This document shows positions 6,325-32,594 of a DNA stretch of 64,000 nt, piece after piece. Each line of letters begins with the position of its first letter. Within the stretch, counting starts at the first letter, position 1. Source of the stretch: Candidatus Izimoplasma sp. ZiA1 (GTDB taxonomy: Bacteria; Bacillota_I; Bacilli_A; Izemoplasmatales; Izemoplasmataceae); NCBI GenBank assembly GCA_002285055.1, contig NQYJ01000007.1, forward strand, positions 1 to 64,000. Direction: 5' to 3'. The notes under the pieces are model-generated. The model ran no database searches. It was given only the letters and a program-made list of their open reading frames with translations, and was not told the origin of the DNA. A program made the position numbers and the translations under genes.

Positions 6325-6478
6325 TATTTTGAGTTGAGGTGTACCCAAACACACCTATAAACCACGATATATGTTTAACCATTTTACCCTGATAGAAACT
6401 CGAGTACAGTCAAATGTATTTGGGTTTTTATTGGTTAGTGAAAAACCCTTAAGTGTTTTGTGATTAAAGTTTTATGCG

Positions 6479-6515
6479 AAAAAAAAGACAAAGTTCTAAA
6501 CTTTGTCTTTTTTAT
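6479..6515. terminator. Bidirectional terminator
   Basis: AAAGACAAAGTT and AACTTTGTCTTT form a perfect stem around CTA with A and T runs on both sides. It ends the minus-strand kinase operon and could stop plus-strand transcription. The preceding gap from 6325 also has a weak AGGTGT/ACACCT hairpin near 6335-6356. Confidence 0.85.
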
Positions 6516-6516
6516 T

Positions 6517-7533
6517 TTATAGTGGTAATAATACTTCTGTAACAAAAACACCTGGTTCATTTTTTCTGTTTAGATAACCATCATATTTATTAACTATTAA
6601 GTTAATTCTTTTTAACCCGTGTCCGTGATTTCCGCGTTTTGTACTTATATATTCCTCATCCATTTTTTTAACTACTTCATTAGTTGCATTTGATACAGAA
6701 ATATATAGTTGTTTTTTAAAGATACCAATATATACTCTAATAAATTTTGGTATGTCTTTTATCTTTTCATTTGCTTCTACAGCGTTATCAATTAAGTTAC
6801 CAATTAATACACATAAATCAATATCACTAACAGTTAATTTTTTTGGAACAACAGCTTTATAGTTAACTTCTATATCGTTTTTTATAGCTAGTGATATTTT
6901 AGAATTTAAGATGGCATCAAGATTTACATTTCCTGATTCTACTAATTGATTAACGTTATCTAAATCTACTTCAAGATCATTTAAGTAAGTACTAGCTTCC
7001 TTAATTTTACCCATTGAGATTTGAGCTTTTAGAGATTGAAGATGATTATGGTAATCATGTCGCCATCCTCTCATTGTTAAATAAATATTTTGAACTTCAC
7101 TAACCTGTTTATCTAGTATTTTATTTTGAAATTTTGTGGCAGCTTCTTCATATGAGTTCTTCATAAATAATTGATTATCTTCAGCAATAAAAAATATCAT
7201 CGCTGAGATATATAATAAGTAAAAAGCAACATCGCTAAAATTTATTCCAAGGATTAAAATGCTTATTGATAAAGATATATAGAAACCCATAAAAACAAAA
7301 GAAACTTTATTTTTTATATGTAATACAATAAAGATTAATATTGATTCTATTGTAAAAATGTATAAGATAACTACACTTGTAATGTTATAGTTATTAGTTA
7401 TAAAGTATGTTAATGTCATTAGGACTATGATTATTAAGGCTAGCCAATATGTATGGTTCCCGTAATTTCTTGATATTAAGTATGCTCCATAAACACCAAT
7501 AAGTATTAACGGTAGTAAAGATAGATACAACAT
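6517..7533 (-). CDS. AgrC/NatK-like sensor histidine kinase (GHKL)
   Basis: This 338-residue protein has an N-terminal block of about five or six membrane segments (residues 1-125). A dimerisation/phosphoacceptor helix with His in GWRHDYHNHLQ lies near residue 160, and a C-terminal GHKL ATPase has N-box NAVEAN and the G box RGNHGHGL. This is the layout of AgrC/ComD-type kinases that sense peptides or membrane signals and phosphorylate a LytTR regulator. Its ATG overlaps the stop codon of the regulator gene by one base (TAATG), so the two are translationally coupled. No obvious signal-peptide gene is visible beside it. Confidence 0.88.
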   Translation of the reverse strand: MLYLSLLPLILIGVYGAYLISRNYGNHTYWLALIIIVLMTLTYFITNNYNITSVVILYIFTIESILIFIVLHIKNKVSFVFMGFYISLSISILILGINFSDVAFYLLYISAMIFFIAEDNQLFMKNSYEEAATKFQNKILDKQVSEVQNIYLTMRGWRHDYHNHLQSLKAQISMGKIKEASTYLNDLEVDLDNVNQLVESGNVNLDAILNSKISLAIKNDIEVNYKAVVPKKLTVSDIDLCVLIGNLIDNAVEANEKIKDIPKFIRVYIGIFKKQLYISVSNATNEVVKKMDEEYISTKRGNHGHGLKRINLIVNKYDGYLNRKNEPGVFVTEVLLPL

Positions 7534-8252
7534 TATAAAGGACCTGCTTTGTAGTACTTAATAAAAGCACTATTTACATCTTTGTATGAGTTTCTACTTA
7601 TTGGAATTTCTACTTTATTGGATAATACACATTTATCCTTAGATATTTCTTCTAGGTGTTTTAAGTTTACTAAGTAACTTCTATGTGTTGATATAAATCC
7701 ATGTTTGCTTAAATCAACAAAGATATCTTTTAGATTATTCTTCCATATAATTGATTCATTCTCTAAATAGACAGTAACATAATGACCTACTGATTCAATA
7801 TAATAAATATCGTCATAGTTAACTTTCTTTTTTTCTCCAGACACGCTAATTATTAAATGTTTATGTTCTTTGAATGTTATGTCTTTGGCTAAATTAAGAA
7901 GTTTTATTAGTTTTGATTCATCTAGGGGTTTAAGTAAATACTGGATGGCTTGAACTTCATAACCCTCAAACACATGATCTGATATTCCTGATAAAAAGGC
8001 AATAATCACAGATTTATCAACTTCTCTAATTTTTTTTGCTAGCTGGATTCCATTAATTTTATTCATTTGGATATCTAATATCATTAAATCAAAAGGATAT
8101 GAACCTGGATTTTCAAACAAAATCTCTTCTGCACTGTGATAAATTTCTAGATTAACTACTGTATTAGTATTACTAGACCACTTTTCAATTAAAGTTTTTA
8201 AGTAATCAAGTTGTATTGAATCATCATCTACTAAACAAATTCTCAAATTCAT
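7533..8252 (-). CDS. LytTR-family response regulator
   Basis: This protein of about 239 residues has an N-terminal receiver domain: acidic pocket VDDD near the start, phosphoacceptor Asp in DLMILDIQM, and Lys in YLLKPLD. The C-terminal LytTR DNA-binding domain contains YIESVGHYVTVY and ISTHRSYLVNL. It is the cognate partner of the AgrC-like kinase encoded immediately downstream. GGAGGTG precedes ATG 8252 with unusually short spacing; a TTG at 8246 has more normal spacing and may be the true start. A TTG further upstream at 8261 is rejected because it abuts the ribosome binding site. Confidence 0.88.
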   Translation of the reverse strand: MNLRICLVDDDSIQLDYLKTLIEKWSSNTNTVVNLEIYHSAEEILFENPGSYPFDLMILDIQMNKINGIQLAKKIREVDKSVIIAFLSGISDHVFEGYEVQAIQYLLKPLDESKLIKLLNLAKDITFKEHKHLIISVSGEKKKVNYDDIYYIESVGHYVTVYLENESIIWKNNLKDIFVDLSKHGFISTHRSYLVNLKHLEEISKDKCVLSNKVEIPISRNSYKDVNSAFIKYYKAGPL

Positions 8253-8465
8253 CACCTCCAAGTTATTTTTTTATAAATATACTTTAGAATTTTTTTAAAG
8301 TATCCTTGTCTTTATAATATCATTCATACATAAATATATCTAGTTGTTTTCTTATATTTTATAAGCTAAAATAGTTTTCTTTTTTAGATTCAATTTAGGA
8401 ATGAGTAAACTTCTTTTTAGTAATCTCAACACTTTTTGATATAGCTATTAATAAATCAGAAAATA

Positions 8466-8504
8466 AAAAAAGAATAATAACGTTTAGTTATTATTCTTTT
8501 TATT
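8466..8504. terminator. Bidirectional terminator
   Basis: GAATAATAAC and GTTATTATTC form a stem around GTTTA with flanking A and T runs, downstream of the CPBP protease gene on the minus strand. The 243-base gap upstream of the response regulator holds nothing else that I can identify. Confidence 0.8.
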
Positions 8505-9317
8505 TTAAATCATAAAAACAAACAAAAGTGATGTAGTTATAAATAAAATTAATATAGTGATAATAGAGGATTCAATCCCAAAAACTCCACCAGTTAAAGC
8601 GTTTGAACCTTGTAACTCGCTTTTATAAGAAGACGGCATCGTATCTCCACCAGATACGTCTAACCCTAAGTAACCTTGAACTAGGTTCCAAAAGATATGA
8701 AAACCAATAGGAGCAATAATATCACCACTATACTCCCTTAGTAATCCTAAGATAATCCCTCCTAGTAAAATACTGATTACAGAGTAAGGTGTTATTCCTT
8801 TGTTCGTGAGATGAGGTAATATAAAAACTGTTGAAGTTAAAAGAATAACAGGAATAGCAGTATAGTCTGCTCTTAATATTCCATAAAGAATACCTCTAAA
8901 TAATACTTCTTCAAAAACAGCCATTACTGTAAAAAACATTAAGAGATTAAAAATGATAATCACACTTGTTTTGGATGTTTTTGTTATCTTTAGAACTTTT
9001 AGTTTAGATAACAATACGGAACTAAATAGGATTACAAATAATCCAGTTAAAGCACCAAATATAAATTTTAGAAGGTGATTACCATGTGCGATAAAAACAA
9101 TTGAACTATTTTGTCTTGTGATTAAGTAAAAGACTAATAATTGAAATGTTATTAGAATAATTGCCTGAACAGCCTTTGAATATTTTTTAGATATTAAACG
9201 ATTTAAGATAGGTTTTATAACTATTTTTTTAGTACCAATAACAATAATAGTAAAAGTTGATAAAGTAATAATTATAATTAGTATTTGTTTTAAAATTACT
9301 AAGATATTATCTACCAT
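8505..9317 (-). CDS. CPBP family intramembrane metalloprotease
   Basis: This membrane protein of about 270 residues has roughly eight hydrophobic segments. The CAAX protease/bacteriocin-processing (CPBP, Abi) motifs are present: FEEVLFRG (EExxxR, about residue 140), an H in LPHLTNKG and an H in FHIFWNLVQG. Members are glutamic-type intramembrane proteases involved in peptide processing or immunity; the substrate here is unknown. ATG 9317 overlaps the tetR reading frame by 11 bases, so the two genes form an operon. A TTG at 9329 is a less likely start. Confidence 0.85.
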   Translation of the reverse strand: MVDNILVILKQILIIIITLSTFTIIVIGTKKIVIKPILNRLISKKYSKAVQAIILITFQLLVFYLITRQNSSIVFIAHGNHLLKFIFGALTGLFVILFSSVLLSKLKVLKITKTSKTSVIIIFNLLMFFTVMAVFEEVLFRGILYGILRADYTAIPVILLTSTVFILPHLTNKGITPYSVISILLGGIILGLLREYSGDIIAPIGFHIFWNLVQGYLGLDVSGGDTMPSSYKSELQGSNALTGGVFGIESSIITILILFITTSLLFVFMI

Positions 9318-26610: not shown

Positions 26611-26982
26611 ATGAAAAGTATGAAAATATTAAAAGCGATAAGTAATAATACAAAACTCAGGTTAATCAGTTTATTGCTAGATGCTGAGTTATGTGTTTGT
26701 GAACTTGAGGAAATTTTAGAAATTAGACAGGCAAATATTTCTAAGAATCTAATTAGTTTAAAAGAAGCAGGTATTGTTGATGTTAGAAGAAATGCACAAA
26801 GGGGTTTTTATTTTTTGACAAATGACTTTCTTTCAAATACAAATTTGGTTGCTTATATTAAGGATGTTAAGAAAAAAGAAGATATGTTAGTTAATGATTA
26901 TTCAGTTTTCATTGAACATGAGTCTAATAAAGATACAAAAGTTTATGTTTGTAATGCATTTAAAAAGGAGAGTAAATTATGA
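26611..26982 (+). CDS. ArsR/SmtB-family metal-responsive repressor
   Basis: This 123-residue winged-helix regulator has the metal-site motif [11 protein letters not shown] (about residues 25-35) followed by recognition helix [21 protein letters not shown] in this helix is the classic ArsR/CadC thiol sensor. It is coupled to a copper-type P-ATPase (overlap of 4 bases, ATGA), so it likely derepresses the operon on metal stress; Cu(I)-sensing ArsR proteins are less usual than CsoR or CopY. ATG 26611 has AGAGGTG upstream; ATG 26578 is rejected as it lies near the transcription start. Confidence 0.88.
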
Positions 26983-29369
26983 TAAAAAAATCGATGAGAG
27001 TAGATGGAATGACTTGTGCGATGTGTGCTAAAACTATTGAAAATACTTTTGCAAGTTATGATAATATATCAGCCAAAGTAAATGTCGGTGCAGGAAAAGT
27101 CTTGTTTACTTACGATGATAAAGAATATAGTCTTGTTCAAATAGCTGATATGGTTAAAGAAGTAGGGTATTCCCCTGTTTTAGAAGAAACATTAGAAGAT
27201 AATAAATTATTAAGAATCAAAATGAGAAAAGAAATTTACATAAGTGTATTTTTTAGTATTCCTCTTTTATGGGCAATGTTTTCCCATTTAAAAGGTTTTG
27301 ATTTCTTATATGTACCAGAACTATTTAAAAATGGTATTTTCCAGTTAGTTATAGCGGGAATTGTTCAAATATATATTGGTAGAAGATTTTACATTGGAGC
27401 TTATCACGGTATTAGAAAAAATAGTTTAGGGATGGATATATTAGTTGTTATTGGAACAACAAGTGCTTATTTATATAGCATGTATTTACTATACATCCAG
27501 CTATTCACAAGTAACCCACCAATGCATGCTGAGTATTATTTTGAAATTAGTGCATTAATAATAACTATGGTCTTAATTGGTAATTATATTGAACATATAG
27601 CAAAAGAAAGAACTACAGATGCTTTAGTTGAATTACTAAACTTAGGTGCTAAAGAAGCAAGAGTTATCAAAGATGGTATTGAACAAATGGTTAATATTGA
27701 GGATGTTGTTTTAGATGATCATATAATCGTTTTGGCTAACGAAAAAATACCAGTTGATGGAAAAATTGTTAGTGGAAAAAGTTATGTTGATGAATCAATG
27801 ATAACAGGAGAAAGTATCCCTGTTGAAAAAACAGTTGATTCCAAAGTTATTGGAGCAACATTAAACTTAAGAGAAAAAATTGTTGTTAGAGCTACTAAAA
27901 TTGGTAGTGATACAATGCTAAGTCAGATAGTTAGTCATGTTGAAGAGGCTAGTAGTGAGAAACCTCCGATTCAAAGAACAGCTGATAAAATAGCTGCCTA
28001 TTTTGTTCCTGTAGTTGTTGGTATAGCTATTCTCAATTTTATTGTTCAGTTTGCGTTTTTAGATGTAGGTTTCACAGATTCATTTACTAGAACGATAGCT
28101 ATTTTAGTTATTAGTTGTCCATGTGCACTTGGACTTGCAACACCAACATCAATATTAGTTGGTAACGGAAAAGCTGCAAAAAATCATATCTTATATAAAG
28201 GTGGAGAGTTCTTTGAACTTGCTAATAAGATTGAAGCAATAGCATTTGATAAAACAGGAACATTAACAATTGGTAAACCTATTGTTACAGATTACTTTGG
28301 TGATGATAATGTACTTGATCTTTTATATAGTATAGAAAAAGAATCAACTCACCCAATCAGTAATGCAGTAAAAGAGTATTGTAATGAAAAAGAAGCTCAA
28401 CTACTTATCATAAAGGATTTTGAGACAATAGAAGGAAAAGGTATCAAAGCTTTTATTGATAATAAAGAAGTATATGTAGGTTCTGTAAAAATAGTTAATG
28501 ATCTAGAATTAGATTTATCAGATTTTGAAGATAAATATAATAAATATTTAAAAGAAGCAAAAACAGTTAACTTTGTAATTGTGGATAAAAAAATAAGAAG
28601 CATATACGCTGTAAGAGACGAAATTAAAGATACATCATTAAAAGTAATAACAGAAATGAAAAAAAGAGGATTAATTCCTTATATGATTACTGGTGATAAT
28701 AGCGTTGTGGCAAACGCAATTGCAAATGAACTTGGAATAAAAAACGTGTATAGTGAAGTATTACCTCACGAAAAAGCAAAAATTATTGAAGAAATAATGG
28801 CAAGTGGTAAAATAACAGCATTTGTTGGAGATGGGATTAATGACGCCCCAGCATTAAAACTTGCAGATGTGGGAATAGCCATGGGACATGGTACAGACAT
28901 AGCGATTGACTCGAGTGATGTTACATTAATGAGTTATGATTTAGGGCTTGTGATAAAAGCAATTGATATGAGTAAAGCTACACTTAGAAATATACATCAA
29001 AATTTCTTCTGGGCGTTCTCATATAATCTAGTCGCTATTCCACTAGCAGCTACAGGTAGACTATCAATGGTAGTAGCAGCTGCAGCAATGGCGTTCTCAT
29101 CAATTATGGTGGTACTAAATGCCTTAAGACTTAAAACATACAAATTACCAGAATTTAAAAGCTTAGGAGGTGAAAAAATGAAAGTTGAAGTTACTAATAT
29201 GACATGTGGACACTGCAAAATGACAATTGAAAAAGCATTAAATAAAAATGGTTTTGAAGGTGTGAACATTGATTTACTTGCTAGAACTGTAGAAGTGGAT
29301 TTAAAAGACAGAAAAGAACAAGAAGTTATAGAGATTATTGAGACTGCTGGTTATGATGTAAAAAAATAG
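26979..29369 (+). CDS. copA: Cu(I) P1B-type ATPase CopA with fused C-terminal CopZ domain
   Basis: This 796-residue copper-exporting ATPase has an N-terminal heavy-metal-associated domain (MTCAMC, about residues 10-15), membrane helices, TGES actuator motif, transmembrane CPC ([12 protein letters not shown], about residue 385), DKTGTLT phosphorylation site, STHPIS and [11 protein letters not shown]. After the last helices it continues into a second metal-binding domain (MTCGHC) of 63 residues beginning at Met734. That Met, at 29178, is preceded by a strong AGGAGGTGA ribosome binding site, so the chaperone CopZ can probably also be made alone from the same reading frame. It ends at a terminator. 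Confidence 0.94.
29165..29180 (+). promoter_or_regulatory. Internal ribosome binding site and start within copA (CopZ)
   Basis: AGGAGGTGA (29165-29173) lies 7 bases upstream (from the GGAGG core) of an in-frame ATG at 29178. It is one of the best ribosome binding sites in the window and sits exactly at the junction between CopA and the CopZ-like domain. A product of 63 residues would have normal CopZ size. Confidence 0.65.
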
Positions 29370-29500: not shown

Positions 29501-29584
29501 GGGCGGGTAGCGAAGAGGCTAAACGCGACAGACTGTAACTCTGTTCCTTAGGGTTCGGCGGTTCGAATCCGTCCCCTCCCACCA
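29501..29584 (+). tRNA. tRNA-Tyr (anticodon GTA)
   Basis: This 84-nt tRNA has an anticodon loop CTGTAAC on the stem CAGA/TCTG, a long variable arm, T-loop TTCGAAT and an encoded CCA end. The acceptor stem GGGCGGG/CCCTCCC has a C-U mismatch at position 4-69. It is the first of the Tyr-Trp pair, 8 bases before tRNA-Trp. Confidence 0.93.
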
Positions 29585-29592
29585 TTTTTTTT

Positions 29593-29666
29593 AGGGGCGT
29601 AGCAAAATGGTTATGCAGCGGTCTCCAACACCGTCTACGGGAGTTCGATCCTCTCCGCCCCTGCCA
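29593..29666 (+). tRNA. tRNA-Trp (anticodon CCA)
   Basis: This 74-nt tRNA has a perfectly paired acceptor stem (AGGGGCG/CGCCCCT), anticodon loop CTCCAAC on GCGGT/ACCGT, T-loop TTCGATC and an encoded CCA. Its 3' half (29620-29666) is repeated three more times downstream at 30571, 31124 and 31822, making it the apparent insertion site of a cassette array. Confidence 0.96.
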
Positions 29667-29679
29667 TTATAAATATATT

Positions 29680-29716
29680 GCAACTTAAACATTTAGAGGT
29701 TTTAGTTGCTTTTTTA
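29680..29716 (+). terminator. Terminator of the tRNA-Tyr/Trp unit (type A)
   Basis: GCAACTTAAAC pairs with GTTTTAGTTGC (one mismatch), followed by a T run. It resembles the hairpin after the third tRNA copy (31185-31217) but not the one after the second. Confidence 0.82.
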
Positions 29717-29816
29717 TTACCTAAAAGCATGTACAGCGGTCTTTTTCACTTTTGTTTATAAGCCATTTACTGCCTTATTTTTATATGATAGAATGATAAT
29801 TAAGGGAGTTGATGTT

Positions 29817-30479
29817 ATGATAAGAAAATTTATGATTTTATTTCTTTTTGTAGTCTTATTAACTGCATGTAACAGAAATGATGATTATTTTTTAAGTAAT
29901 CCTAGCTTTAATAGTTCTGCTGAGTTAGAAACCATATGGTATAAAATTGTTGATGAAAATGGACATAGTAAGAATACAACCGTCCCATATGAAAAGATAA
30001 GTGTGTTATTGCACTTTGATTCAGGGAGTTTTTCTGTAGGTGCTATAGTCTATAGCTTACATACAGGAGGTAAAGTAGGAGATTATAAGTTTGATATTTT
30101 TACTTGTTTTGACCGTGGTTCGACCTTAGAATGTAGCAATGGTAAAATTTCTAGTGAAGTAGAGGAATTGCCTGAAGAAATCATGATAGAGGATGTTATG
30201 GATATATTGTCAGAAGTTGACTTGGATCAACTCCTAACGTACTTGCGTGATGAGTACAATATCTTAAATGTAGAGGATACAATTGTATCTATCAGTTATA
30301 GGTCATACAATAATGAAATGATAAATAATTTAGATAATGATGAGTATATTAATGTGTTATACAGTGATGGATATTACCATATTGGAGAAAGTTTTGCTCT
30401 AAATGGAATCAAAGTTGAGATATCAGTAGGTTTTCGCATGGGAGAGCAAGAACAGAATTTTAAGGTATATTTTGACTAA
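29817..30479 (+). CDS. Cassette 1: putative lipoprotein of unknown function
   Basis: This 220-residue protein has a lipoprotein signal (MIRKFMILFLFVVLLTAC, lipobox LTAC with Cys at residue 18) and a mature part rich in Asp, Glu and Ser without recognisable family motifs. ATG 29817 is preceded by AAGGGAG; an upstream TTG at 29706 lies inside the terminator hairpin and is rejected. The promoter TTTACT-17-TAGAAT lies at about 29766-29794. It is the only gene of cassette 1. Confidence 0.75.
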   Translation: MIRKFMILFLFVVLLTACNRNDDYFLSNPSFNSSAELETIWYKIVDENGHSKNTTVPYEKISVLLHFDSGSFSVGAIVYSLHTGGKVGDYKFDIFTCFDRGSTLECSNGKISSEVEELPEEIMIEDVMDILSEVDLDQLLTYLRDEYNILNVEDTIVSISYRSYNNEMINNLDNDEYINVLYSDGYYHIGESFALNGIKVEISVGFRMGEQEQNFKVYFD

Positions 30480-30570
30480 AAGTAAGGTTGGAAAATCTCG
30501 TAAAGCCCTTTTTTGATACGCTTTCGTATTCAGTAATCGACTTAAAATCTATTTGTCTAAGCGCATTTTA

Positions 30571-30617
30571 GGTCTCCAACACCGTCTACGGGAGTTCGAT
30601 CCTCTCCGCCCCTGCCA
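30571..30617 (+). repeat. tRNA-Trp 3'-half copy R1 (47/47 identical)
   Basis: All 47 bases match 29620-29666, from the anticodon stem to CCA. The sequence to the left (GCGCATTTTA) does not match the tRNA 5' half but resembles the left flanks of the other two copies. It lacks D arm and 5' acceptor strand and cannot form a tRNA. Confidence 0.92.
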
Positions 30618-30629
30618 TTAAGATATATA

Positions 30630-30665
30630 ATAACTAAACTATTTAAAGGTTTAGTTATTTTTTTT
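30630..30665 (+). terminator. Terminator after tRNA copy R1 (type B)
   Basis: ATAACTAAAC and GTTTAGTTAT form a perfect 10-bp stem followed by eight T. Bases 30623-30664 are identical to 31874-31915 after copy R3. Confidence 0.85.
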
Positions 30666-30758
30666 GTTTACATTGAAATTGCACAACGGTAAATCGAATA
30701 TATATGAGTCATTTACAGCCTCCTTTTTTTATAGTAAAATAAACTGGGAGTTGGTTTT

Positions 30759-31103
30759 ATGATTGAAGAAGAATTTATTGCAAGGAATTTTGCTATCTCA
30801 GAAGAAACAGTTATTGGTAAGTACAAATTCGTAATCTATGACATATCCGATTGGCCTAAGGGGGCAAAAATGTATAATTATTGTCCAGGTAATATGGATG
30901 TATATTATGAAAATGAGTTTCTATTCAATAGTAATACACTGATTAAGATGTTTCTAAATCAAAAAAATCCCAAATGGAAATCAGATTATTTTTATGATAT
31001 ATCTTATTTTGAAGATAGTATAGTGAAGTTTAATGGTAACTTGTTTACTTGGGACTTTGACATGCAAACTAAAAGAATAGTGTCAAGGACAATTAATAAA
31101 TAG
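30759..31103 (+). CDS. Cassette 2: hypothetical protein
   Basis: This 114-residue soluble protein is rich in Tyr, Phe and Asn with no signal or membrane segment and no motif that I recognise. GGGAG precedes the ATG, and the promoter at 30712-30740 is nearly consensus. It lies alone between tRNA-Trp fragments R1 and R2. Confidence 0.65.
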   Translation: MIEEEFIARNFAISEETVIGKYKFVIYDISDWPKGAKMYNYCPGNMDVYYENEFLFNSNTLIKMFLNQKNPKWKSDYFYDISYFEDSIVKFNGNLFTWDFDMQTKRIVSRTINK

Positions 31104-31123
31104 CTATGAAATTTTGCATTTTA

Positions 31124-31170
31124 GGTCTGAAAGACCATCTACGGGAGTTCGATCCTCTCCGCCCCTGTCA
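31124..31170 (+). repeat. tRNA-Trp 3'-half copy R2 (42/47 identical)
   Basis: It differs from the tRNA at five positions. Four are clustered in the former anticodon loop region, where GGTCT-GAA-AGACC now makes a perfect hairpin; the fifth changes CCA to TCA. Left flank TTGCATTTTA resembles that of R1. Confidence 0.88.
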
Positions 31171-31184
31171 TTATAAATATATTG

Positions 31185-31217
31185 CAACTAAACCATTTTG
31201 AGGTTTTAGTTGTTTTT
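31185..31217 (+). terminator. Terminator after tRNA copy R2 (type A)
   Basis: CAACTAAACC pairs with GGTTTTAGTTG with one bulge, followed by six T. The 21 bases at 31169-31189 are identical to 29665-29685 after the intact tRNA. Confidence 0.78.
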
Positions 31218-31303
31218 TATTTCCAAAAAATAATGAGCAACTGAGTTTACACCTATTATATCTAATAACTATTTGATATAATAAATGGGAGGAGATGATT
31301 AAA

Positions 31304-31768
31304 ATGATTGACAACAAAATAGTAGTATTGAAGAAATTAGCAACACTCTTTAACAAACATTCAATAACATGGAATGTAGGAGCATCATGCATGCTATATT
31401 TAAGAAATATAATTGATGATTTTAATGATATAGATATTATGATAAGTTTAGAAGACGTATCATTGGTAAAAGAGCTTTTAAAGGAATTTCACTTAGAGGA
31501 AAAACAACCAACAACGAAATATAAAACAAAAGTATTTTTAGAGTATGTTATTGATTCTGTTGAGATTGATATAATGGCAGGATTTCTAATAGTAAAAGAT
31601 GATAATGAGTTCTATTTTCCACTACAAAAAGGATTAGAAATGGAACAGATAAATATAGATAACTGTCCTGTAAATCTAGAATCAACTCATAACTGGTTGA
31701 AGTATTATGACCTTATGGGTAGAGATGATAAAGTTGCGATTATTAAAGAACATATGAAGAAAATTTAA
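31304..31768 (+). CDS. Cassette 3: nucleotidyltransferase-fold protein
   Basis: This 154-residue protein has the minimal nucleotidyltransferase signature: WNVGASCMLYL (the hG[GAS]S motif) followed by FNDIDIMIS (DxD) and a third acidic strand VEIDIMAG. This pattern occurs in AbiEii/MNT-type toxin or antitoxin enzymes and in aminoglycoside or lincosamide nucleotidyltransferases; which of these applies is not clear. GGGAGGAG lies 9 bases before ATG 31304; the ATG at 31295 directly abuts it and is less likely. It is the sole gene of cassette 3. Confidence 0.72.
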   Translation: MIDNKIVVLKKLATLFNKHSITWNVGASCMLYLRNIIDDFNDIDIMISLEDVSLVKELLKEFHLEEKQPTTKYKTKVFLEYVIDSVEIDIMAGFLIVKDDNEFYFPLQKGLEMEQINIDNCPVNLESTHNWLKYYDLMGRDDKVAIIKEHMKKI

Positions 31769-31821
31769 CACTTTTAATGTTTGAAATAAGTTAATAATTT
31801 ATGTAATGAAGGTACACTTTA

Positions 31822-31868
31822 GGTCTCCAACACCTTATACTGGAGTTCAATCCTCGCCGCACCTGCCA
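31822..31868 (+). repeat. tRNA-Trp 3'-half copy R3 (41/47 identical)
   Basis: Six scattered substitutions relative to the tRNA, including two that break the T stem and acceptor strand (TTCAATC loop, GCACCT). It is the most diverged and most distal copy. Left flank GTACACTTTA resembles those of R1 and R2. Confidence 0.87.
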
Positions 31869-31880
31869 TTATAATATATA

Positions 31881-31916
31881 ATAACTAAACTATTTAAAGG
31901 TTTAGTTATTTTTTTA
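31881..31916 (+). terminator. Terminator after tRNA copy R3 (type B)
   Basis: ATAACTAAAC and GTTTAGTTAT with a T run, identical to the hairpin after R1 over 42 bases. Confidence 0.85.
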
Positions 31917-32018
31917 TGATTTATGAAGCTGGGTTATAGCGCATCTAATCATATTCAAAAGTTATTTACTGGATTTTTTAATTATGATAAAATATAGATA
32001 AAGAAGGTGGTGTTCAAA

Positions 32019-32594
32019 ATGAAGAAAATTATAACTGTATTGATTTTGTTTGTTGTAATGATATTACTTACTGCTTGTTCATATGAAGGTAAATCAATAG
32101 ATGATTGTAAGAATCATGGTGGCAAATGTTATTACAACAATGAAAGTGTAAAAAATGATGATTCAGAGCTATCAAAAGGATTGTTAAATCTGCTTTTAAA
32201 TTCTGATCATGATATAAGTTTTTACTATGATATATATCCAGGAGAAGATATATTGTGGATTAAGTATCAAACTGATGAAGAAATATCACATAACAGTTTT
32301 ACAGAAATGATTTCTTTACATGATGAAATTATTGCCTTTGTTAATAGCCTTTATGATATTGCAGTTATTGAGTTTACTGTCTCATATATGGAAGATATAA
32401 ATATGGACATATTGTACGATACTGATAGTGAACTTGCAGTTCTATTTAGTTTTGATGAGTTTGTCATTGAAAACTCAAGTGATTTGGATGATGATGAGTT
32501 ATTTAATGTAGCTTCTAATTACATTGATGAGTTTTCTGATCCAATTAAGATATGTCTTGATTACGATAAAACTATTTTGGTTTCCATTATCTAG
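32019..32594 (+). CDS. Putative lipoprotein downstream of R3, possibly frameshifted
   Basis: This 191-residue protein has a lipoprotein signal (MKKIITVLILFVVMILLTAC, Cys at residue 20) and an acidic mature part without known motifs. ATG 32019 follows GAAGGTGGTG, and promoter TTTACT-17-TAAAAT lies at about 31965-31993, the same arrangement as in cassettes 1 and 2. After the stop at 32594 a good coding stretch continues in the -1 frame to 32710, so the gene may once have been about 230 residues long. It is the distal member of the tRNA-Trp array; no further tRNA fragment was found after it. Confidence 0.65.
   Translation: MKKIITVLILFVVMILLTACSYEGKSIDDCKNHGGKCYYNNESVKNDDSELSKGLLNLLLNSDHDISFYYDIYPGEDILWIKYQTDEEISHNSFTEMISLHDEIIAFVNSLYDIAVIEFTVSYMEDINMDILYDTDSELAVLFSFDEFVIENSSDLDDDELFNVASNYIDEFSDPIKICLDYDKTILVSII

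Follow-up and report, generated by a model that had tools for sequence, protein, structure and literature searches.

Putative single-gene cassettes bounded by a tRNA-derived core at tRNA-Trp of Candidatus Izimoplasma and its relatives

Introduction

In Candidatus Izimoplasma sp. ZiA1, of the family Izemoplasmataceae, the tRNA-Trp gene is followed by a series of small genes that are separated from one another by copies of the 3' half of that same tRNA, which raises the question of whether these genes arrived as discrete mobile units and, if so, by what kind of recombination. The window analysed here is the stretch of 64,000 nucleotides at positions 1 to 64,000 of contig NQYJ01000007.1 (assembly GCA_002285055.1). 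Its genome is labelled G000, other G-numbers denote comparison genomes and L-numbers denote loci. The original prediction, made from the letters of the window, had proposed a stepwise insertion of tiny non-autonomous gene cassettes at the tRNA. Comparison with the genomes of the family and order suggests that non-autonomous, mostly single-gene cassettes have in all likelihood been inserted by site-specific recombination at a tRNA-derived site.

Results

A conserved core bounds the repeats

The conserved site has the form TGCATTWTA + GGT-CTCCAAC-ACC, in which a left arm of non-tRNA sequence is followed by an arm, an anticodon loop and a second arm. The copies start at position 28 of the tRNA with GGT and continue through the 7-nt anticodon loop CTCCAAC into ACC, and such an arrangement of arm, 7-nt loop and arm is the geometry expected of a tyrosine-recombinase core. 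Across 36 loci, 84 Trp-type and 45 tRNA-Arg-type hits were obtained with site matrices, counts that are not unbiased given that the regions were selected for holding the pattern. The 36 loci leave out overlapping ones (L111, L118, L129, L194 and several more), and L123 and L132 are left out of the counts of unit size, neighbour distance and tRNA 5' halves. At least two of the Trp-type hits (L115:3273 and L181:6848) seem by eye to lie within a coding gene, and the Arg-type hits include five with a tRNA left flank and one site counted twice (L135:15704 and 15705).

Over the 84 Trp-type hits the best-conserved columns lie in or beside the loop (T 0.99, A 1.00, C 0.98, A 0.98). The left arm is of the TGCATTWTA class in 55 hits, of three other classes in 11, tRNA sequence in 4 and unclassified in 14. 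The tRNA 5' half is present at 4 tRNA genes only and the other 80 hits match it at no more than 8 of 14 nucleotides, so a local tandem duplication that took in the tRNA 5' half, named at the outset as one of the ways in which the prediction could fail, is not what is seen. A T-loop motif follows within 60 nt in only 20 of the 84 hits while the core is kept, which indicates that a site can do without the tRNA half but not without the core. The role of constant part, assigned at first to the tRNA half, thus falls to the core, and arrays were found far from tRNAs as well. Neighbouring sites 100–3000 bp apart lie on the same strand in 79 pairs and on opposite strands in none. A shared leader, scored as a match at 26 or more of 36 positions, accompanies 27 of 83 Trp sites and 2 of 45 tRNA-Arg sites, compared with 4 of 600 random stretches.

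Unbiased counts are provided by pattern searches with 16-nt and 22-nt site patterns and a 45-nt tRNA-Arg pattern. Among 90 genomes of the order the 16-nt pattern occurred in 11, and its reversed control gave 0 matches in the same genomes; the match of the pattern in G070, of family f3 outside the family of the window, was judged by eye to be due to chance. The 22-nt pattern with up to 3 mismatches gave 47 matches in 12 of 49 family genomes, against 1 for the reversed control. Within 84,980 species genomes, exact site matches lay on at least 10 stretches, all from metagenome-assembled genomes labelled Candidatus Izimaplasma, Tenericutes or Mycoplasmatota, a list known to be incomplete because exact sites in G008 are missing from it. 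A viral origin was rejected, as a 20-nt site pattern had no exact match in IMG/VR.

The tRNA-Trp gene has C at loop position 38 in the array-bearing genomes G000, G008, G027, G034, G083 and G025, a comparison that covers recovered genes and thus excludes the array genomes G006, G010, G020, G036, G081 and G082. The same C38 occurs in G032 and G016, relatives of G025 without detected Trp sites, and the other recovered tRNA-Trp genes, including those of G022 and G079, carry A38. C38 may mark a 3' half that came from a cassette. As a separate observation, G042, from another family of the order (L009/L041), has a tRNA-Trp of the 74-nt type of the window, 94% identical but with A38, and many closer relatives of the window genome have a 75-nt type unlike either.

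Whole cassettes recur between genomes and loci

With an imposed size range of 200–2600 bp, 72 core-to-core units had a median length of 726 bp; the longest open reading frame (ORF) runs along the site in 64 of them and opposite in 7, and one has none of 40 aa. Without the size cut, the same-strand neighbour distances (n = 89) had a median of 746 bp, with 79 below and 10 above 3 kb. No integrase is present among the longest ORFs listed for the units, and the pool of cassette genes includes Abi_2, AbiEi and Fic proteins.

A 1.2-kb cassette with a Fic gene was found core to core in three contexts and two genera (G081, G082 and G025), with 78–85% identity between the copies and different neighbours and outside sequence. 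The homology begins no more than 6 bp from the Arg core and stops 11 nt into the next core or, in the one pair whose members both retain the tRNA-Arg half, where that half ends. G008 and G034 share a helix-turn-helix (HTH) cassette with 89% identity as far as the core. One protein family (37–52%) is encoded by cassettes of both array types, Trp in G008 and G083 and Arg in G025.

Loci of related genomes differ in the same units. In G027 and G083, which belong to one genus, the flanks of the tRNA-Trp locus are 94.4 and 94.6% identical and, a 119-bp tRNA-half stretch aside, the interiors of 1.2 and 2.2 kb are unrelated. G008 carries 8 cassettes between mutS and msrB; these two genes are separated by less than 100 bp in its congeners G022 and G029, as they are in G027, G083 and G006. 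The assemblies of G008 and G022 are single contigs, so their arrays are unlikely to be assembly artefacts. The gene copA adjoins tRNA-Trp in many relatives, with a match at 22 of 36 loci searched for it (some overlapping, and some matches partial or weak). The differing gene content at tRNA-Trp argues against a fixed set of units common to all relatives, and together the G027/G083 contents, the three contexts of the Fic cassette and the single orientation of all 79 pairs bear out the proposal of non-autonomous cassettes at a tRNA-derived site.

The array in the window

The array is anchored on tRNA-Trp (CCA) at 29593..29666, with tRNA-Tyr ahead of it at 29501-29584; tRNA-Trp and the array features below are on the + strand. 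The core GGT-CTCCAAC-ACC lies within the anticodon arm at 29620..29632 and is attB/attL-like. Cassette 1 (951 bp, 29620..30570) consists of the tRNA 3' half, a terminator-like hairpin at 29680..29709 identified by folding against shuffles, a leader/promoter at 29759..29794 (30/36 match to the shared leader), the 220-aa lipoprotein-like ORF 1 at 29817..30479 (LPAM_1 match, below cut-off) and a left arm. If the model holds, the 3' half of the window tRNA-Trp itself belongs to cassette 1. Site 2, CGCATTTTA followed by the core, was found with the 22-nt site pattern at 30562..30583, as was site 4, TACACTTTA followed by the core, at 31813..31834. Between them, cassette 2 (553 bp, 30571..31123, core to core) has a leader/promoter at 30705..30740 (29/36) and the 114-aa ORF 2 at 30759..31103, which has no Pfam match up to E 1. 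Site 3 at 31115..31136 combines TGCATTTTA with the altered core GGTCTGAAAGACC, its arms retained and its loop changed, and opens cassette 3 (698 bp, 31124..31821, core to core) with the 154-aa ORF 3 at 31304..31768, which gave a weak nucleotidyltransferase-like match to PF14907 (E 0.016, below cut-off). Unit 4 (31822..32594), whose right end is open, contains a 3'-half copy, a hairpin, a leader at 31958-31993 and a lipoprotein-like ORF at 32019-32594. No closing site above the site-score threshold was present right of 31822, and this fourth unit adds to the units of 951, 553 and 698 bp reported at first.

On recomputation the 3'-half copies begin at 30571, 31124 and 31822 with 47/47, 42/47 and 41/47 identities, as had been reported, and the unit sizes were likewise reproduced, as was the likeness of the left flanks to one another and not to the tRNA 5' half. 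The repeat had been described as ending at CCA, which is incorrect: by BLAST it extends past CCA into the terminator, over 81 bp with 89, 90 and 83% identity in copies one to three. All four hairpins, after tRNA-Trp and after each copy, are more stable than any of 200 shuffled sequences (z -3.5 to -4.6), in agreement with the proposed terminators, although a terminator scan that requires G-C pairs listed none of the four. One promoter per unit had also been proposed; a leader with a promoter-like pair is clear ahead of ORFs 1, 2 and 4, but the best match in the third unit is 18/36. A general promoter scan of the region gave 31 against 27.0 expected (sd 4.6), not above chance, so the case for the leader rests on its conservation between genomes. 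An Rfam scan of the region returned the two real tRNAs and nothing else, and the acceptor strand of the third copy is mutated.

As expected from the claim of unrelated small ORFs, the ORF products of the window do not match one another. Relatives of ORF 1 are present in 5 other genomes of the 49, one directly behind a Trp site in G083 (28–29%) and a weak one behind tRNA-Arg in G020 (20% over 101 aa), and short peptide patterns from the cassette 1 protein gave no relative in the species-genome contigs. ORF 4 has a relative on the contig of the tRNA-Arg array of G010 (31%, E 9e-14), and ORFs 2 and 3 have no relatives among the compared loci. Upstream of the array, the end of the copA ORF (26979-29369) resembles, by eye, a fused CopZ-like metal-binding domain.

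tRNA-Arg arrays and mixed arrays

The same architecture is found at tRNA-Arg(TCT), where the repeats again begin at the anticodon loop, with the core CTTCTAA. The 45-nt tRNA-Arg 3'-half pattern matched 41 of 90 genomes, all 41 in the family of the window and with 0 for the reversed control, and 13 of those 41 have two or more copies. Repeats of the 3' part stand behind an intact tRNA for Trp in the window, G034, G027 and G083, and for Arg in G027, G022, G008 and G029. On contig 28 of G027, an element encoding an integrase and a Viral_Rep-type Rep comes after an intact tRNA-Arg; beyond it lie another 13 copies, many of them separated by small genes. The tRNA-Arg island of G008 extends over ~35 kb with 12 hits, counting the tRNA, and two integrase genes. 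Arrays mixing Trp- and Arg-type sites occur, and at four places the start of a Trp core lies 33–35 nt to the left of an Arg core. In the window genome, 6.9 kb without an integrase match separate two tRNA-Arg 3' halves.

Copies in the G022 tRNA-Arg array lose identity to the tRNA as their distance from it grows (45, 45, 42, 38, 36, 33 and 33 of 45; rho -0.98, p 8e-5). The suggested order, with the newest cassette next to the tRNA, is clear here and weaker in G027, and in the window it concerns three copies.

Integrative elements with an integrase and a Rep were also noted at tRNA-Arg in L127, L129 and L120. Of the Rep proteins, that of L129 gives a Viral_Rep match and the other two, of L127 and L120, are its relatives. 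In their attachment region these elements carry a CAATATTAC-like nonamer, which we take to resemble the origins of circular Rep-encoding single-stranded (CRESS) DNA elements.

Candidate recombinases

The window genome has five PF00589 hits: one XerC-like, one XerD-like, one Xer-like, one between hsdS-like genes and one broken, on contig 6. None was matched near the window array. The contig 6 integrase has two in-frame stops and is the sole relative of tRNA-Trp-type integrases in that genome, which fits the expectation that the recombinase is encoded elsewhere; three Trp-type hits lie 1.7–4.3 kb from it. In a tree from which one misframed integrase had been removed beforehand, it forms a clade (98/99) with an intact copy in G079 (65% identical), located directly behind tRNA-Trp, and a fragment in G010 (74%), on a contig with a Trp site. 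A C-terminal integrase fragment behind tRNA-Trp in G025 matches the G079 enzyme best (71% over 63 aa), with several other enzymes also near 70%. An integrase lies beside tRNA-Trp in G079 and G022 and beside tRNA-Arg in G022, G027 and G008. Other integrases, at tRNA-Arg, -Thr and -Phe, are related, and those at tRNA-Leu more distantly so. At the tRNA-Thr and -Phe loci and one -Leu locus no second 3'-half copy was detected, and at the other Leu locus (L136) the second copy is the whole tRNA-Leu gene. The context of the clade supports mobilisation by a helper, short of proof, and the recombinases are likely to be tyrosine integrases carried by tRNA-inserted elements.

Two other candidates were rejected. 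The Xer-like protein of G000:C11 (9794-10714, L075), a third Xer-like recombinase at a contig end and 37% identical to XerC, has no close relatives in the 49 family genomes, the best being XerC/XerD-like at ~34–38%. The element of G082, considered as a source of the Trp enzyme, was reassigned, its att core being that of tRNA-Arg with the Trp core 35 nt leftward.

Three further loci were noted in passing. The recombinase between hsdS-like genes (L077, G000:C8; by eye) is placed as in phase-variable type I restriction loci. Near the broken integrase, a methyltransferase-like gene and a large ORF (L122 3683-6361, G000:C6) are possibly, by eye, a restriction-modification pair. Two tandem integrase copies of equal score and equal length lie beside the tmRNA gene in L125 (G008:C1:958000-972000, at 6367-9079), with one in-frame TAG in the wider match.

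Discussion

Proposed mechanism and alternatives

In the proposed mechanism, a cassette would run from core to core and comprise the right half of the site, with or without the tRNA 3' half and terminator, often a promoter leader, the gene, and the left arm, mostly TGCATTWTA. A tyrosine integrase would recombine core with core, probably by way of circular intermediates. At the tRNA the crossover would fall within the anticodon loop, so that the tRNA is made whole again by the incoming 3' half and its previous 3' half serves as the next boundary, and the cassettes nearest the tRNA would be the youngest. Cassettes without the 3' half occupy positions inside arrays and at other loci. The most likely source of the enzyme would be the integrative elements that stand at the same tRNAs and have rolling-circle-type Rep genes. 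The tRNA-Arg(TCT) core defines a sister set, and there are mixed Trp/Arg arrays. The presence of the same cassettes at different places in different species points to integron-like gene-capture behaviour.

Several observations weigh against this reading. No excised or circular form of a cassette was encountered, and recombination is deduced from sequence comparison. The longest ORF is reversed in 7 of the 72 cassettes. The HTH cassette of G008 lacks the whole tRNA 3'-half segment present in G034, a difference for which core-to-core exchange alone is insufficient, and the best relative of ORF 1 (G008, 33%) has no adjoining core. The gradient in the tRNA-Arg array of G027 is weaker than that of G022 (rho -0.62, p 0.025), and no such gradient is present in the site scores of the tRNA-Trp array of G083. 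Sites are present without a full-length integrase of this type in G006 (99% complete), G034 and G036, whose integrase hits are XerC/XerD-like, plus two partial ones in G006, a class assignment inferred from score and length; a helper would there need an outside source. In turn G079, with its intact tRNA-Trp integrase, has no Trp-type site in the 22-nt search, and its tRNA loop ends in A38 where the cassette cores have C38.

It is unlikely, but not far-fetched, that the arrays are instead remnants of successive ordinary integrative elements at tRNA-Trp, such as integrative and mobilizable elements (IMEs) and satellites, shrunk by deletion to one gene each and with no mobile cassette unit. Elements with an integrase and a Rep do stand at the same tRNAs and head tRNA-Arg arrays, the 10 intervals above 3 kb form a long tail, and accretion of elements that lack an integration module is known (PMC3146451; this and the literature accounts below are taken from excerpts of the sources). 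Remnants would not readily account for the median distance of 746 bp obtained with no size cut, for a leader common to many units at a frequency far from that in random stretches, or for the occurrence of one and the same small unit, from core to core, in more than one genome.

A far weaker candidate is shuffling of the genes by homologous recombination or tandem duplication among scattered tRNA-derived repeats, with no site-specific enzyme. Some of the repeats are 45–100 bp in length, long enough for occasional exchange, and several genomes have no dedicated intact integrase. Against it stand the confinement of the tRNA 5' half to 4 tRNA genes, the non-tRNA left arm common to most hits, the centring of conservation on the loop and the uniform orientation; duplicated units would moreover hold related genes, which the ORF products of the window are not. 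That the repeats are RNA elements (tRNA-like 3' ends, or processing or regulatory signals) spread between genes is scarcely credible, for although they are intergenic, of tRNA sequence and backed by a terminator-like hairpin, Rfam finds only the two real tRNAs, the T-loop motif is mostly absent where the core is kept, the third copy has a mutated acceptor strand, and the unit of homology is the whole cassette.

Comparison with known systems

Taken as site-specifically inserted cassettes, the tRNA-anchored arrays belong with the additive islands anchored on tRNA or tmRNA genes, in which tandem insertions behind the gene are likewise bounded by repeats of its 3' end. In the Dehalococcoides ssrA islands, the repeats are 20 bp with a conserved motif just left of them, integration genes lie beside the anchor and there are units without an integration module (PMC3146451). 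The Methylophilaceae island fGI-2 has 20-nt tRNA-Lys repeats and islands of 330 bp to 42 kb with 1 to 63 coding sequences (PMC10872708), a range that suggests small units may exist there too. Cassettes with tRNA repeats are described in additive islands of Actinomarinales (PMC7771536), and islands of the same kind in Alteromonas (PMC4119200). The present arrays differ in their units of mostly 0.3–1.7 kb with one main gene and often a shared leader, and in having cassettes intact in different genera, arrays away from tRNAs and mixed Trp/Arg cores. No account of these arrays was found in the open-access literature searched, and the combination of one-gene cassettes with a shared leader, core-to-core sharing between two genera, mixing of tRNA cores and off-tRNA arrays was not seen described in the excerpts on known islands.

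Accretion of integrative and conjugative elements and IMEs, and cis-mobilizable elements, resemble the cassettes in that cargo flanked by att sites is acted on in trans by the recombinase of a neighbour (PMC3146451). The differences are in the size of the units, the length of the arrays and the off-tRNA arrays. Xer-dif modules, in which dif-like sites for XerC/XerD flank a gene module, may also resemble the cassettes. Tycheposons, tRNA-bordered cargo of 4–200 kb with a tyrosine recombinase, are similar in plan as described secondarily in PMC10872708; the cassettes are several times below 4 kb and have no recombinase among the longest ORFs listed.

Chromosomal integrons and clusters of attC sites lacking integron integrases (CALINs) share with these arrays the tandem small, mostly one-ORF cassettes in one orientation, the tyrosine recombinase, integrase-less clusters elsewhere in the genome and cassettes common to several taxa (PMC8618304). 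Two defining integron features were not found among the proteins and sites compared. With the integron integrase model TIGR02249 (cut-off 265), three element integrases scored 67, 53 and 80, and XerD, XerC and the Xer-like protein of the window genome scored 177, 143 and 97, all below the cut-off. The attC core pair RYYYAAC ... GTTRRRY was present in 0 of the 84 Trp-type hits, against 3 of 500 random stretches. Integrons differ further in that the site here derives from a tRNA anticodon arm and a shared promoter leader stands behind about a third of the Trp sites. Given the integrase and attC results and the known additive islands with tRNA repeats, the system is described as a miniaturised integron-like variant.

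The arrays show how integron-like gene capture could arise from ordinary tRNA-targeting integrases, by a route in which cargo shrinks to one gene, the core is kept, the integrase is lost and the site is shared. A graded series is available, from complete elements through tRNA-half cassettes and core-only cassettes to off-tRNA arrays. The arrays also suggest that a pool of small genes moves between genera of these little-cultured, free-living sediment bacteria. On a bolder interpretation, which we offer tentatively and consider somewhat less than an even prospect, this would be a second, independently evolved integron: a cassette economy spanning the Izemoplasmataceae, off-tRNA arrays included, in which integrases of Rep elements at tRNA-Trp and -Arg would capture, excise and rearrange one-gene cassettes by way of a dedicated attC-like site derived from a tRNA anticodon arm.

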